Assembly (NCBI GenBank): GCA_900104855.1
Contig: FNSS01000001.1
Coordinates: 1,736,001 to 1,800,000 of the forward strand
Reading direction: 5' to 3'
DNA length: 64,000 nucleotides
Source of the DNA: Rhizobiales bacterium GAS188
GTDB lineage: Bacteria > Pseudomonadota > Alphaproteobacteria > Rhizobiales > Beijerinckiaceae
Shown: positions 3,956 to 50,306 of the stretch, piece after piece
Layout: the number at the start of each line of letters is the position of its first letter
Numbering within the stretch: the stretch's first letter is position 1
The notes under the pieces: model-generated
The model's input: the letters and a program-made list of their open reading frames with translations, nothing else
Database searches by the model: none
What the model was told of the DNA's origin: nothing
Program-made: the position numbers and the translations under genes

Positions 3956-4957
3956 TCACGGCGCCTTGGCTTGCGTGAAGGAACGCCTGAAGAGATCATA
4001 CCAATTGCCGCCCATGATGCCGTCGATTTCGGCATCGGCAAAGCCGCGTTGCGCCAGCCCGGCGCGCAGCTTGCCGAAGTCGCGATTGTCGCGGAACCAG
4101 TCTGGCGGCTTTGGGAAGACCGGCTTGCCGAGCCCGATATTGGCCGCACCTGTCGTCCAGCGCCCGTTGCGCATCCATTCCACCACGCTGTCCGGCTGGT
4201 CCTGGCAGAGATCGGAGCCGATGCCGATATGGGCCGCGCCGATCAGCTCGGCGAGGCGCGCCACCATCTCGGTGAAGCTCGTCAGCGTGCAATCGGAGCC
4301 GCCCTTCAGGTGCAGCGGATAGAGCGAGAGCCCGAGCATGCCGCCGCGCGCCGCGAGCGCCTTCAGCACCGTGTCGGACTTGTTGCGCGCCACCTGATGC
4401 CAGGCGGACGGACAGGCATGCGTGATGGCGATCGGCCGTGCCGACAGATCGATCGCCTCGAGCGTGGTGCGCTCGGCCGAATGCGACATGTCGATCAGCA
4501 CGCCTAAGCGATTCATCTCGGCGATCACTTCGCGGCCCATGCGGGTGATGCCGGCATCCTCGGCCTCGTAGCAGCCCGCGCCCAAGAGCGACTGGTTGTT
4601 GTAGGTGAGCTGCATCACCCTGATGCCGAGCTCGTGCAGGATCTCGAGGAGGCCGATATCGTCCTCGATGGCCGAGGCGTTCTGCAGGCCGAGGAAGATG
4701 GCGGTGCGCTGCGATGCCTTGGCCGCGTCGATATCGGCGACGCTGCGCGCAGGCTGGATCAGATGGGCGAAACGCGCGAAGCGGCGCTTCCAGTCGATCA
4801 GGTTCTCGACTGTCTCACGGAAATCCTCATGGTAGCAGACGGTGACCTGGACGGCGTCGACGCCACCTTGGCGCAGCTCCTGGAAGATGCTCTCGGACCA
4901 GTTGCAATATTGGCAGGCATCGATGAGGTAGGGCAGCCGCGCCGCAGGGTCAGGCAA
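3956..4957 (-). CDS. peptidase M19 (membrane dipeptidase) family protein with altered metal site
   Basis: The 333-aa protein has the M19/renal dipeptidase TIM-barrel pattern: GLQNASAIEDD, LTYNNQSLLGAGC, the VLIDMSH segment, ITHACPSAWH, and GIGSDLCQD, followed by the C-terminal NIMGGNWY-like GIMGGNWYDLF. The first barrel strand reads YLIDACQYCNW, where the family normally carries an HxD metal pair, and the usual bridging glutamate position appears as Gln in GLQNAS. It may therefore use one metal, a different chemistry, or be inactive as a dipeptidase. The start is a TTG at 4957 preceded by GGGAG. It is the first gene of the five-gene operon. Confidence 0.85.
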   Translation of the reverse strand: MPDPAARLPYLIDACQYCNWSESIFQELRQGGVDAVQVTVCYHEDFRETVENLIDWKRRFARFAHLIQPARSVADIDAAKASQRTAIFLGLQNASAIEDDIGLLEILHELGIRVMQLTYNNQSLLGAGCYEAEDAGITRMGREVIAEMNRLGVLIDMSHSAERTTLEAIDLSARPIAITHACPSAWHQVARNKSDTVLKALAARGGMLGLSLYPLHLKGGSDCTLTSFTEMVARLAELIGAAHIGIGSDLCQDQPDSVVEWMRNGRWTTGAANIGLGKPVFPKPPDWFRDNRDFGKLRAGLAQRGFADAEIDGIMGGNWYDLFRRSFTQAKAP

Positions 4958-24872: not shown

Positions 24873-24893
24873 ATCACTACATAACGTAGCGAT
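24873..24893. promoter_or_regulatory. operator A of the S24 repressor locus
   Basis: Half-sites ATCACTACA and CGTAGCGAT, separated by 3 bp, form a near-palindrome. It covers the -10 (TAGTGA on the minus strand, 24874-24879) of the leftward promoter. Confidence 0.7.
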
Positions 24894-24902
24894 CAATGTC
24901 AA
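24874..24902 (-). promoter_or_regulatory. leftward promoter of the phage-type genes
   Basis: On the minus strand, a perfect -35 TTGACA (24902-24897), a 17-bp spacer and TAGTGA (24879-24874). The -35 lies in operator B and the -10 in operator A, so a bound repressor would block it. Confidence 0.6.
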
Positions 24903-24918
24903 TACGGCATGTAGCGAT
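24898..24918. promoter_or_regulatory. operator B of the S24 repressor locus
   Basis: Half-sites GTCAATACG and TGTAGCGAT, separated by 3 bp. The second half is a perfect match to the consensus TGTAGYGAT. The centre is 25 bp from that of operator A. Confidence 0.65.
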
Positions 24919-24921
24919 TGT

Positions 24922-24942
24922 GTCGCTACACTAGGTGGCGTG
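24922..24942. promoter_or_regulatory. operator C, overlapping the repressor start codon
   Basis: GTCGCTACA, 3 bp, then a degenerate second half GGTGGCGTG that includes the GTG start codon. The centre is about 24 bp from that of operator B. The weak match suggests a low-affinity autoregulatory site. Confidence 0.5.
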
Positions 24943-25671
24943 AACAAGGAAGAACGCCTTCGTCGGGATCAGGGCCGGCGCCTCACCGAGGCGCGCCAGG
25001 CGGCGGGCTATCGTTCGGCGCGCGCCGCCGCCATGGAGAATGGCTGGCCGGAGAGCTCCTATCGGGCCCATGAATCCGGCACCCGCACGATCGGCCAGGA
25101 CGATGCCGAGCGCTATGCGCGCCGCTTCCACCTGCGCGGCGCCCAGGTGACGGCGCAGGACATCCTGTTCGGGGCGGCCGACGAGCCGGTGCACGAGGCC
25201 GAGCCGAACCCGCATCAGGTGCCGGTGATGGGCTATGTCGGCGCCGGCGCCGTGGTCGAGCCCGATTTCGAGCAGGTTCCGGAGGACGGGCTCGATGCCA
25301 TCGACCTGCCCTTCGTGGTCGAGGACGGCATCATCGCCTTCCGGGTGCGCGGCGAATCGATGCGCCCCTCCTATCGCGACGGCGATGCCATCCTGGTCTG
25401 GCGCGAGCAACGCATGGCGACCGACAGCTATATCGGCGAGGAAGCGGTGGTGCGTACAGGGGACGGGCGGCGTTTCCTCAAGGAGATCCAGGGCGCCGGC
25501 AAGCGCGGCATCTACAATCTCTACAGCCATAATGACCGCATGATCGAGAATGTGCGGCTCGAATGGGTGGGCGAGATCCACCTCATCATCAGGGCGCGCC
25601 AGATTGGCCGGCTCGGGGTCGGTCAGCGCAATGCGGCCCGCAAGAAGCGCCCGGGTGAACGAGCGGCTTAG
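24940..25671 (+). CDS. S24/LexA-like phage repressor (CI-type)
   Basis: The 243-aa protein has an N-terminal HTH region (RLTEARQAAGYRSARAAAMENGWPESSYRAHESGTRTI) and a C-terminal S24 autopeptidase domain: Ala102-Gly103 in GYVGAGA as the candidate self-cleavage bond, Ser140 in RGESMRPSYRDGD and Lys181 in RFLKEIQ as the catalytic dyad. RecA-stimulated self-cleavage would make its regulon SOS-inducible. The GTG start at 24940 has no ribosome site, and a TACACT -10 at 24927-24932 would place transcription at or next to the start codon. This suggests a leaderless mRNA like lambda cI. Three operator-like sites lie directly upstream. Confidence 0.88.
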   Translation: MNKEERLRRDQGRRLTEARQAAGYRSARAAAMENGWPESSYRAHESGTRTIGQDDAERYARRFHLRGAQVTAQDILFGAADEPVHEAEPNPHQVPVMGYVGAGAVVEPDFEQVPEDGLDAIDLPFVVEDGIIAFRVRGESMRPSYRDGDAILVWREQRMATDSYIGEEAVVRTGDGRRFLKEIQGAGKRGIYNLYSHNDRMIENVRLEWVGEIHLIIRARQIGRLGVGQRNAARKKRPGERAA

Positions 25672-32197: not shown

Positions 32198-32252
32198 GCC
32201 GGCTGGAAGCCGGCGGTCCGACCTTCCCTTGGACCGCCGGCTTCCAGCCGGC
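32198..32252. repeat. 55-bp palindromic repeat, copy 1 (just past the GMC gene stop)
   Basis: 22-bp arms (left begins GCCGGCTGGAAGCCGGCGG) flank an 11-bp loop. Including flanks, about 70 bp match copy 2 in inverted orientation. It begins about 20 bp past the stop of the GMC oxidoreductase and could act as a hairpin in its 3' UTR. Confidence 0.9.
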
Positions 32253-32271: not shown

Positions 32272-33978
32272 TCACGTCAGCATGAACTCCGCGCAGCGCT
32301 CGGCGATCATCACCACGGGCGCGTTGGTATTGCCCGAGATCAGCCCCGGCATGACCGAGGCGTCGCAGATGCGCAGCCCCTCAATGCCCCGCACCCGCAA
32401 TTTCAGATCGACAACGGCTTGCGCATCCGAACCCATGCGGCAGGTGCCCGAGGGGTGGTAGACGGTCTTGGCGTGGCTGCGCACATGGGCTTCGAGAACA
32501 TGGGCTTCGAGAACATGGGCTTCGAGAACATGGGCTTCGAGCACCTCGTCGCTCGAGGCCGCCGAGTAGCCGGCTGGAAGCCGGCGGTCCAAGGGAAGGT
32601 CGGACCGCCGGCTTCCAGCCGGCATCGTCTCCTCGCCGCTTCCCGCCAGCGCGCCCTCGACCGGCGCGATCTCGCTCTCGATCAGCGCCGCGAGCGCCGG
32701 CTGGCGCAGGATCTGGCGGGCGAGCTTGACGCCGCGCAACAAGGTCTCGACATCCTCGGGCGCCGACAGGGCGCCGCTGTCGAGCTTGATTGTGTCAGCG
32801 GGGTCGGGCGAGCGCAGGGTGAGCTGCCCGCGCGAGCGCGGCTGCAGCAGGCAGGGGTTGAGGGTGATGCCATGTCCACCCGGCGCCTCGCGGCCGACAT
32901 CGCCGACCAGCACCGGCAGCACATGGAACTGCACATCCGGCCGGCCTGTCCTTGCCGTATCGAAGAAGCCGCCGCTCTCGACCACGTTCGAGGTCAGGAG
33001 GCCTGAGCCCAGGCCGAGCCACTCGACGCCGTGGCGCAGCGCCCTGAGACCACGGTCCTGGCCGAGCAGGGAGAGCGGCTGGCGGGCGCGGCCATAGACC
33101 GGCACTTCGAGATGGTCCTGGTAATTCGCGCCCATCTCGGGAGCATCGTGCAGCAGCGTGATGCCGAGCGACGCGAGCGCGGCAGCAGGCCCGATGCCCG
33201 ACAGCATCATCAGCTTCGGCGTCGCCAGCGCGCCGGCGCAGACGACGACCTCGCGCTCGGCCAGCGCCTCATGGCTCGTCCCCTTTTGTCGCCAGGCGAC
33301 GCCAATGGCGCGCCCGCCCTCGATCAGGATGCGCGTCACCTCGGCGCCGGTGACGACGGTGAGGCCCGGGCGGCCGCGCACTGCCGCGAGATAAGTCGCG
33401 GCTGTCGAGGCGCGGCGCCCCTCCATGGTGGTCGTCTGGTAGAAGCCGACGCCCTCCTGGCGCTCGCCGTTGAAGTCGTCATTGTAGCGATAACCCGCCT
33501 GCTGCGCGGCGCGCACGAAGGCGAGCGACAAGGGATGCCGGTAGCGTGGATCGCTGACCCGCAACGGCCCTTGCGTGCCGTGCAGCGCGCCTGCGAGCCG
33601 TTCATTGGCCTCGGCCCGCTTGAAGGCCGGCAGCACCTCGGCAAAGGACCAGCCTTCGCAGCCGGAGGCCGCCCAGCCGTCATAATCCTCCTTCTGGCCG
33701 CGCATATAGACCATGGCGTTGAGCGAGGAGCCGCCGCCCAGCATCCGCCCTTGCGGGATATAGAGCGCGCGCTGATCGGCCTCCGGCGCCGGCTCGCTTT
33801 CATAGACGAAGCTGCGCTCGGTGCCGATGACGCGCACGAAGGTTGCCGGCATGCGCACGAACAGGATGTCGTCGCCGGGACCTGCTTCGAGCAGCAACAC
33901 GCGCCGACCCGCCTCGACGAGGCGCATGGCGAGGACGCAGCCGGCCGAACCCGCCCCGACAATGATGTGATCGAACAT
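32272..33978 (-). CDS. GMC-family oxidoreductase (choline dehydrogenase-like) with a repeat-derived insertion
   Basis: The 568-aa protein begins FDHIIVGAGSAGCVLAMRL (FAD-binding GxGxxG, residues 7-14). It has the GMC signatures GRMLGGGSSLNAMVYMRG and GALATPKLMMLSGIGPA and the C-terminal YHPSGTCRMGSD with catalytic His508, ending ISGNTNAPVVMIAERCAEFM. It oxidises an alcohol using FAD. Residues about 451-474 are encoded by a 55-bp palindromic repeat and residues about 479-499 by four 15-bp tandem repeats (LEAHV units). Relatives have only a short loop there. The reading frame is intact. The start at 33978 has GGAG upstream. It is divergent from the SDR gene. Confidence 0.9.
   Translation of the reverse strand: MFDHIIVGAGSAGCVLAMRLVEAGRRVLLLEAGPGDDILFVRMPATFVRVIGTERSFVYESEPAPEADQRALYIPQGRMLGGGSSLNAMVYMRGQKEDYDGWAASGCEGWSFAEVLPAFKRAEANERLAGALHGTQGPLRVSDPRYRHPLSLAFVRAAQQAGYRYNDDFNGERQEGVGFYQTTTMEGRRASTAATYLAAVRGRPGLTVVTGAEVTRILIEGGRAIGVAWRQKGTSHEALAEREVVVCAGALATPKLMMLSGIGPAAALASLGITLLHDAPEMGANYQDHLEVPVYGRARQPLSLLGQDRGLRALRHGVEWLGLGSGLLTSNVVESGGFFDTARTGRPDVQFHVLPVLVGDVGREAPGGHGITLNPCLLQPRSRGQLTLRSPDPADTIKLDSGALSAPEDVETLLRGVKLARQILRQPALAALIESEIAPVEGALAGSGEETMPAGSRRSDLPLDRRLPAGYSAASSDEVLEAHVLEAHVLEAHVLEAHVRSHAKTVYHPSGTCRMGSDAQAVVDLKLRVRGIEGLRICDASVMPGLISGNTNAPVVMIAERCAEFMLT
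32483..32542 (-). repeat. 15-bp in-frame tandem repeat, four units, inside the GMC gene
   Basis: The unit ACATGGGCTTCGAGA starts at 32483, 32498, 32513 and 32528; only the last base of the fourth unit differs. On the coding strand it gives repeated LEAHV. Confidence 0.92.
32569..32623. repeat. 55-bp palindromic repeat, copy 2, inside the GMC gene
   Basis: Same arms and loop as copy 1 but in inverted orientation. The match to copy 1 extends over 32557-32628. It is translated in frame (coding strand: MPAGSRRSDLPLDRRLPAGY). Confidence 0.92.
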
Positions 33979-37944: not shown

Positions 37945-38967
<1,023 letters not shown>

Positions 38968-49100: not shown

Positions 49101-49155
49101 GCCGGCTGGAAGCCGGCGGTCCAAGGGAAGATTGGACCGCCGGCTTCCAGCCGGC
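49101..49155. repeat. 55-bp palindromic repeat, copy 3, after the lysE-type gene
   Basis: Same arms as copies 1 and 2; the loop differs at two or three bases. Here the palindrome extends further outward (CCACGAA/TTCGTGG, 49094-49162). Confidence 0.9.
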
Positions 49156-49293: not shown

Positions 49294-49314
49294 ATCACTA
49301 CACCATGTATTGAT
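49294..49314. promoter_or_regulatory. S24-type operator 1 at the remote locus
   Basis: Half-sites ATCACTACA and TGTATTGAT, separated by 3 bp, match the operators at 24873-24942. A TTGATA -35-like hexamer begins in its right half (49310-49315). Confidence 0.65.
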
Positions 49315-49338
49315 AAAGATCGCCACACGATGTAGCCA
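49310..49338 (+). promoter_or_regulatory. promoter of the two-gene unit at 49378
   Basis: TTGATA (49310-49315), a 17-bp spacer and TAGCCA (49333-49338). The -35 and -10 lie in operators 1 and 2 exactly as in the leftward promoter at 24902-24874. Confidence 0.5.
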
Positions 49339-49339
49339 T
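49319..49339. promoter_or_regulatory. S24-type operator 2 at the remote locus
   Basis: Half-sites ATCGCCACA and TGTAGCCAT, separated by 3 bp. The centre is 25 bp from that of operator 1, the same spacing as operators A and B near the repressor gene. Confidence 0.65.
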
Positions 49340-50006: not shown

Positions 50007-50014
50007 AAGGCTCA

Positions 50015-50043
50015 ACCTTCTCCCGCACTTCGCGGGAGAAGGT
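50015..50043 (+). terminator. hairpin after the S24-type unit
   Basis: ACCTTCTCCCGC pairs with GCGGGAGAAGGT around a 5-nt loop, 9 bp past the stop codon at 50006. No T-run follows. The sequence also belongs to a common intergenic repeat family. Confidence 0.5.
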
Positions 50044-50306
50044 GCCGAGACGCAGTCGAGGCGGATGAGGGACGGTTGAGCACTTCACCGACGCCCCTCA
50101 CCCGGCTCGACCATAGCTGTGAGCGAACGCTCGCAGCGTGCTGCGAGCTATGGTCTCGCCACCCTCTCCCGCCTCAAGTGGCGGGAGAGGGAAGCGAGGC
50201 GGTGGATCGCGGGCTACGCGCGAAGTGACAGAATCTCGATCCAGCCTTATCCTGACGCGGCGAATCTGAGCATGCATTCGACTGAGGTGGCGAAGGAAAA
50301 CGGCCC
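50044..50306. repeat. composite palindromic intergenic repeat
   Basis: Two further dyads follow: CCATAGCT (50111-50118) with AGCTATGG (50146-50153) enclosing GAGCG-AA-CGCTC, and CCCTCTCCCGCC (50162-50173) with GGCGGGAGAGGG (50180-50191). The rest of the gap up to 50306 shows nothing distinctive. Confidence 0.7.

Follow-up and report, generated by a model that had tools for sequence, protein, structure and literature searches.

Described Repressor Switches and the S24 Locus

The immunity regions of temperate phages of the CI/C2 type, which follow the logic of lambda and P22, comprise a repressor with HTH and S24 domains, divergent promoters with several dyad operators, and another promoter that carries a second operator pair. 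In the LexA SOS regulon, the repressor likewise carries an S24 domain, with an Ala-Gly cleavage motif and a Ser/Lys pair. GTA control is known in few bacteria. In Caulobacter, the LexA-like repressor RogA controls small activator genes, which in turn switch on the CcGTA cluster at another place; RogA is reported to lack the catalytic residues, and its sites are given as GGAA-N4-TTCC (PMC9632790, PMC11150451).

The window (the whole 64-kb stretch of the Rhizobiales bacterium GAS188 genome analyzed here) encodes a 243-aa S24 repressor, P0004 (24940–25671, plus strand), with an HTH and a Peptidase_S24 domain (PF00717, E-value 1.6e-9; HTH_31, 0.0016, under its cut-off) and a match to the transcriptional repressor family phrog_4 (1.5e-15). 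P0004 resembles LexA in its S24 domain, self-cleavage motif (Ala-Gly at residues 102–103) and Ser/Lys pair (Ser140 and Lys181), and in having these residues it is unlike RogA as reported. Ala-Gly, Ser, and Lys are intact in P0004 and in 18 more of 20 S24 proteins, and the remaining one (L081) looks intact. From the intact Ala-Gly site and Ser/Lys pair we infer that the regulon would be SOS-inducible.

A proposed divergent operon lies on the minus strand next to the repressor gene. Its first gene, P0005 (24421–24795; 124 aa), occupies the place of a GcrA-like gene in relatives; a GcrA-like identity for P0005 itself is unsupported (E-value 8 with a model of 13 GcrA-like proteins built without window sequences). 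The second gene, P0006 (23707–24405; 232 aa), encodes a DUF6362 protein (PF19889, 2.8e-11; phrog_6836, 2.2e-9). At the other locus, gene2 (P0002; 49378–49608, plus strand; 76 aa) and gene3 (P0003; 49605–50006, plus strand; 133 aa) are coupled by a stop/start overlap of four bases, in keeping with the sequence-only reading. That reading spoke of a regulon of unknown small proteins, of which one is the DUF6362 protein; gene2, gene3, and P0005 have no Pfam, PHROG, PADLOC, or NCBIfam family. PADLOC and NCBIfam returned no family for any of five window proteins. A search of open-licence papers for the word DUF6362 found none.

The window is like a CI/C2 immunity region in having an HTH plus S24 repressor (with HTH_31 under cut-off) and a 3 + 2 set of predicted operators whose layout and sequence are matched in viral contigs. 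It is unlike one in that the second promoter lies 24 kb away, the genes served are DUF6362, P0005, gene2, and gene3, and no Cro-like gene or nearby phage structural or replication gene was recognized among the window's genes, part of which were family-searched. The five private predicted operators at two loci also distinguish it from the LexA SOS regulon. What appears to be new here is that a switch of the phage-immunity type has been split and retained by its host.

Predicted Operators and Promoters at the Two Loci

The segment 49294–49339 contains two imperfect dyads of 21 bp, with 25 bp from one start to the next: the putative operators O4 (49294–49314; ATCACTACACCATGTATTGAT) and O5 (49319–49339; ATCGCCACACGATGTAGCCAT), both assigned on the plus strand by site match and matrix. 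Three further putative operators at the S24 locus were assigned on the same strand by pattern scan and matrix: O1 (24873–24893; ATCACTACATAACGTAGCGAT), O2 (24898–24918; GTCAATACGGCATGTAGCGAT), and O3 (24922–24942; GTCGCTACACTAGGTGGCGTG), the last of which overlaps the S24 start codon. The window operators are of the ATCGCTACA type (the dyads can also be written as TCGCTACA-type), unlike the GGAA-N4-TTCC sites given for RogA.

A recount bore out the two like sites, their 25-bp spacing, and the hand count of the sequence-only reading: 32 of 46 positions are identical between 49294–49339 and the reverse complement of 24873–24918, and the next-best 46-mer has 26 matches when the two loci are excluded (64 kb, both strands). 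With a matrix built from the three S24-locus sites alone, O4 and O5 score 21.3 and 19.3 bits, and none of 1000 dinucleotide shuffles of the 49.3-kb promoter stretch equaled these scores. A comparison of the two window promoter regions by plain 17-mer similarity, in which 8 of 200 shuffles were equally good, was rejected as too blunt in favor of matrices; in L120, L124, L125, and L128, 24–39 of 200 shuffles were as good.

The pattern TCRCTACAYNANGTAGCGA at up to two mismatches yields five rows in the 9.09-Mb genome, all at the two loci and covering four of the five sites; having been derived from the five sites it matches them by construction, and the informative part is the absence of others. 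The sequence-only reading had named many equally good scattered matches as a sign of an unspecific motif, and none were found outside the two loci at this threshold. At up to three mismatches there are 28 rows, nine from the five sites and 19 elsewhere, and a reversed control pattern gives 42.

A promoter-like element was read by eye at 49310–49338 (plus strand): its −35 hexamer, TTGATA (49310–49315), starts inside O4 and is followed after 17 bp by a weak −10, TAGCCA, which O5 spans; TTGACA was also seen in L025 and L027. At the S24 locus, TTGACA stands at the same offset with TAGTGA after 17 bp, also read by eye, which agrees with the same-place promoter elements proposed previously; both −10 hexamers are poor, and the transcription start points are putative.

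Viral Contigs Encoding Relatives of P0004

The window's operator type is found just before the repressor in 17 of 18 viral contigs that encode P0004 relatives; with a threshold of 11 bits, four of the 17 have one site only. The contig without it, L187, encodes a different, unrelated HTH. Eleven of the 18 loci were long enough (> 1.5 kb of sequence following the coding match of the repressor, or following its start) to be assessed for a second operator pair, which is present in 10 of them (not L187) at a spacing of 25 bp in nine and 35 bp in L189. The other seven loci are truncated by contig ends; in five of them a single additional site lies close to where the repressor gene ends. Background in mononucleotide shuffles was two hits in 129,619 bases.

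In these 10 contigs an O4-like site is the first member of the second pair, and TTGAC lies inside this first site in nine and between the two sites in L189. Beyond the second pair, L181 encodes, among others, a DNA polymerase III beta-clamp and L192 a PDDEXK-like DUF3799 protein, as in an early phage operon. P0006 had no relatives in viral contigs and no match among plasmids, and gene3 had no relatives in viral contigs and no match among phage records.

The five sites, their 3 + 2 layout, their genomic rarity, and the viral layout together lead us to read 49294–49339 as the detached second pair of a phage-immunity-type switch, best taken as corresponding to the second pair of operators that such phages have. 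The segment is very probably the second promoter, with two of the five operators, of a regulon under the LexA/CI-like S24 repressor encoded at 24940–25671, a reading that comes from sequence comparison. Repressor on O4 and O5 would block the gene2–gene3 promoter, and on O1–O3 it would block the divergent P0005–DUF6362 operon together with its own start; RecA-stimulated self-cleavage would release both promoters.

A Contiguous Cassette in Related Genomes

In two same-genus MAGs (Hyphomicrobiales bacterium; L079 and L080) the genes are contiguous, DUF6362 pointing away from S24, gene2, and gene3, which follow one another in this order; a third same-genus genome (G002) shows gene3 alone, at a contig end (L086). 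A six-frame check of 17 family loci, a few of which also contributed to the models, found S24 and the GcrA-like gene in all 17, DUF6362 in 16 (not L121), and gene3 in 16 (not L083); ten of the loci have the terminase large subunit. Support for the GcrA-like label is weak (PF07750 in L081, 0.0034, under cut-off), and the DUF6362 protein of L081 is also under the Pfam cut-off (2.6e-5); L081 and P0006 both match phrog_6836.

Models built without window or same-genus sequences were run against 1076 proteins, a set that includes 1000 shuffles and shortened copies of P0003 and P0006. The DUF6362 model found P0006 at 0.0027, and a model of nine family gene3 proteins found P0003 at 4.4e-9, each being the best match besides its own shortened copies. 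Gene3 belongs to an unnamed family that accompanies the S24 cassette, with matches in 44 of 298 family genomes (E ≤ 0.01; the weakest marginal). Homology of the window's gene2 to that of L079/L080 is unsupported (E-value 0.14 with a model lacking window sequences; one shuffled copy scores higher), and the two are positional equivalents only. Predicted structures of the DUF6362 protein (pLDDT 43.5) and gene3 (mean pLDDT 52.9) were too poor for fold search.

Three operator types were scored: type I (window; ATCGCTACAT-type), type II (L079 and L080; TTCCCCTA-type), and type III (16 family loci; GGTAAnnTTACC-type). Matrices were built from sites between the DUF6362 or GcrA-like gene and S24, picked with a consensus chosen by eye after both promoters had been seen. 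The same-type matrix then finds two sites before gene2/gene3 in the window, L079, and L080 (0 of 1000 shuffles each) and in the 16 type III loci (0 of 200 each). Cross-type matrices score low; the shuffles single out one exception, in which the type II matrix applied to L116 (0 of 200) reaches 7.3 + 6.6 bits, much lower than the 19.2 + 19.2 bits of its own type. Only two of the divergent sites of L128 were counted, the second gene3 site of L131 scores 6.0 bits, and the pair of L122 is 26 bp apart; L083 has neither gene3 nor downstream operators.

Nine loci were left out of the matrix statistics: L123 (two GGTA-type sites by eye, recovered as a pair in L098), L130, L133 and L134 (both below), L135 (a fourth operator type, seen in G021), L082, L084, and L085 (S24 present, gene3 not found in the stretch), and L086 (contig end). 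L130, the second gene3 match of G345, is a lone gene3 with a transposase-like insertion just upstream. L133 and L134 (G290 and G006) carry gene3 relatives without an adjoining recognized S24 and with a TACCCATnnTGGGGA-type (TACCCAT) site upstream, and are possibly another split regulon.

A survey of 30 gene3 loci, 26 of them outside the window's genus, found a type III pair within 300 bp upstream in 18 of the 26; five more have at least one type III site, two have none (L112 and L114), and one lacks upstream sequence. The four same-genus loci have no type III site within 300 bp upstream, and none occurred in 600 shuffled 300-mers. In L166 (G356), four type III sites form two pairs ∼0.7 kb apart (4058–4819), ∼2.9 kb before a partial gene3 match that itself has no site.

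Repressors and operators thus differ between types, yet within each type the operators agree at both promoters. This agreement, the viral 3 + 2 layout, and the contiguity in relatives strongly support the earlier prediction that the S24 repressor controls both clusters. Within the genus, the DUF6362 proteins of the window and the MAGs are 70–72% identical and gene3 50–62%, and the repressors align at only 24%; the MAG loci L079/L080 carry a different operator type from the window at both promoters. Most likely, a phage-type block (operators, repressor, operators) replaced an older one by a single exchange in the window's lineage, and a later rearrangement moved gene2–gene3 24 kb away, with control in trans retaining the operators. 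We infer this history from few genomes, preferring a single exchange followed by a split because the order promoter–S24–promoter is contiguous in relatives and in phages, an order of events that would account for the new operators as well as for the distance.

GTA-Like Clusters in Relatives and the Proposed Role of the Switch

A terminase gene lies near the cassette in 10 of the 17 family loci, in pieces in one of them: in L129 (G345) it is fragmented, with an internal stop, and all the cassette genes are found. Matches to TerL, portal, and head-maturation protease come from L131/L132, and the tail genes of G320 (L145) match GTA_TIM (E-value 3.2e-106), DUF2460, Phage-tail_3, and Rcc01698_C; G012 and G006 have similar gene orders, judged from translations only. 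GTA-like head-tail clusters were seen in L131 and L145 (G320), L083 and L148 (G012), and L150 (G006); on reading, without a model search, no integrase or replication gene was noticed in them. The GTA_TIM protein of G320 has 754 aa; open frames of ∼1300 aa contain many of the family's GTA_TIM matches.

A strong match to the cluster terminase (E < 1e-160) occurs in 26 of 298 family genomes, of which 17 have GTA_TIM (E ≤ 1e-10) and nine are without a match; gene3 is present in 22 of these 26 versus 22 of the 272 others. Weaker matches are widespread, the terminase alignment matching 239 of the 298 genomes, mostly far more weakly, and GTA_TIM 233. None of the four genomes of the window's genus (G000–G003, three of them incomplete MAGs) has a match to the cluster terminase or GTA_TIM, a difference from RogA–GafYZ and its GTA cluster. 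The genus seems to have lost the GTA-like cluster and kept the switch for some host use.

The terminase lies away from gene3 in G470, G424, G366, G462 (30 kb apart), G282, G290, and G356. These seven unlinked terminase loci have no type III site at 11.5 bits, six being informative because G290 uses another operator type; among linked clusters there is one borderline hit within L131 (11.5 bits) and another elsewhere in L120 (11.7 bits), with a shuffled background of 1 in 61,000 bases. The placement of operators at small-gene promoters, and not at these terminase loci, is like that in RogA–GafYZ. The genes served are different: DUF6362, gene3, and in relatives the GcrA-like gene, with the window's promoters serving P0005–DUF6362 and gene2–gene3. 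By analogy with RogA–GafYZ, the repressor in related genera would most likely silence small regulators that switch on the GTA-like particle cluster, the DUF6362 and/or GcrA-like protein activating the GTA-like genes in trans.

We tentatively propose, as a reading with somewhat less than an even chance of being right, that S24, DUF6362, gene3, and a small protein (GcrA-like or other) form a regulatory cassette not described before, which controls another, second kind of GTA-like element in the family. Under this reading, phage immunity blocks have entered the cassette as complete units by exchange, the repressor changing at once with the operators of both sets, and in the window's genus the switch would have survived the loss of the particle genes and become a host regulon in its own right. 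A search of open-licence literature on GTA together with Methylocystis or Beijerinckiaceae gave nothing relevant, judged by title and abstract opening. If true, the cassette would supply candidates for the repressor, the operators, and the activators of a GTA-like element in a further bacterial group, and the joint exchange of repressor and operators would be a natural experiment that makes regulon membership readable from sequence. It also raises the question of what role a phage-type switch plays in a genus seemingly without particle genes.

The system might instead be a DNA-damage regulon proper, in which S24 cleavage frees small proteins for survival, lysis, or mutagenesis with no link to particles even in relatives. 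The intact cleavage residues across the S24 proteins are in line with this, as are the seven of 17 family loci where the cassette has no nearby terminase (one a contig end) and the lack of a cluster terminase match among the genomes of the window's genus. That a terminase does lie near the cassette in the other 10 loci (in pieces in L129) tells against it, as does the concentration of gene3 in strong-terminase genomes, and we judge it unlikely, at perhaps one chance in several.

Selection, Decay, and Regulator Identity

Between the window and the same-genus MAGs, dN/dS is 0.21–0.26 for DUF6362 and 0.26–0.44 for gene3, at partial saturation of the synonymous sites. Comparisons among the MAGs give 0.08 for DUF6362, 0.13–0.32 for gene3, and 0.03 for the repressor, a value that concerns the different repressor of L079/L080 and not P0004, which is without a close relative to compare. 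The corresponding gene2 ratio was discarded because its homology is unsupported. DUF6362 and gene3 look to be under selection.

These ratios below 1 (0.21–0.44, allowing for the partial saturation) count against the view that a decayed prophage left the two loci behind, with a repressor that may still bind while the genes are idle and eroding, as do operators that are intact at both loci after their separation and a cassette that recurs across several related genera. The phage kind of the operator type and repressor fits such remnants, and so does the dearth of phage genes: no structural, replication, or integrase gene was recognized on reading the window's called genes (part of them family-searched), and neither the cluster terminase nor GTA_TIM is matched anywhere in the genome. 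We consider decay improbable. The preferred reading remains that of a retained switch under P0004.

The sole Phage_portal match of the window's genome (G000) is at C1:7306667, outside the window, and a second S24 match (C1:7318632) lies ∼11 kb from it; the region G000:C1:7306667–7319036 is probably a prophage. That second S24 protein is what might favor control of the 49.3-kb genes by a different XRE/S24 regulator, with an incidental operator resemblance, a reading we regard as highly improbable given that TCRCTACAYNANGTAGCGA has no match near 7.3 Mb, that this operator type accompanies a P0004-type HTH in 17 of 18 viral contigs, and that the operator type at gene3 promoters follows the linked S24 in relatives.

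Dispersed palindromic repeats, seen in the window at 49113–49150, 32210–32240, 32581–32611, 26472, and 50010–50050, flank gene2–gene3, and the downstream repeat has 52 further matches in the genome; such repeats might have mediated the rearrangement of gene2–gene3. An ORF at 37945–38400 in the window resembles a fragment of an IS110-type transposase.
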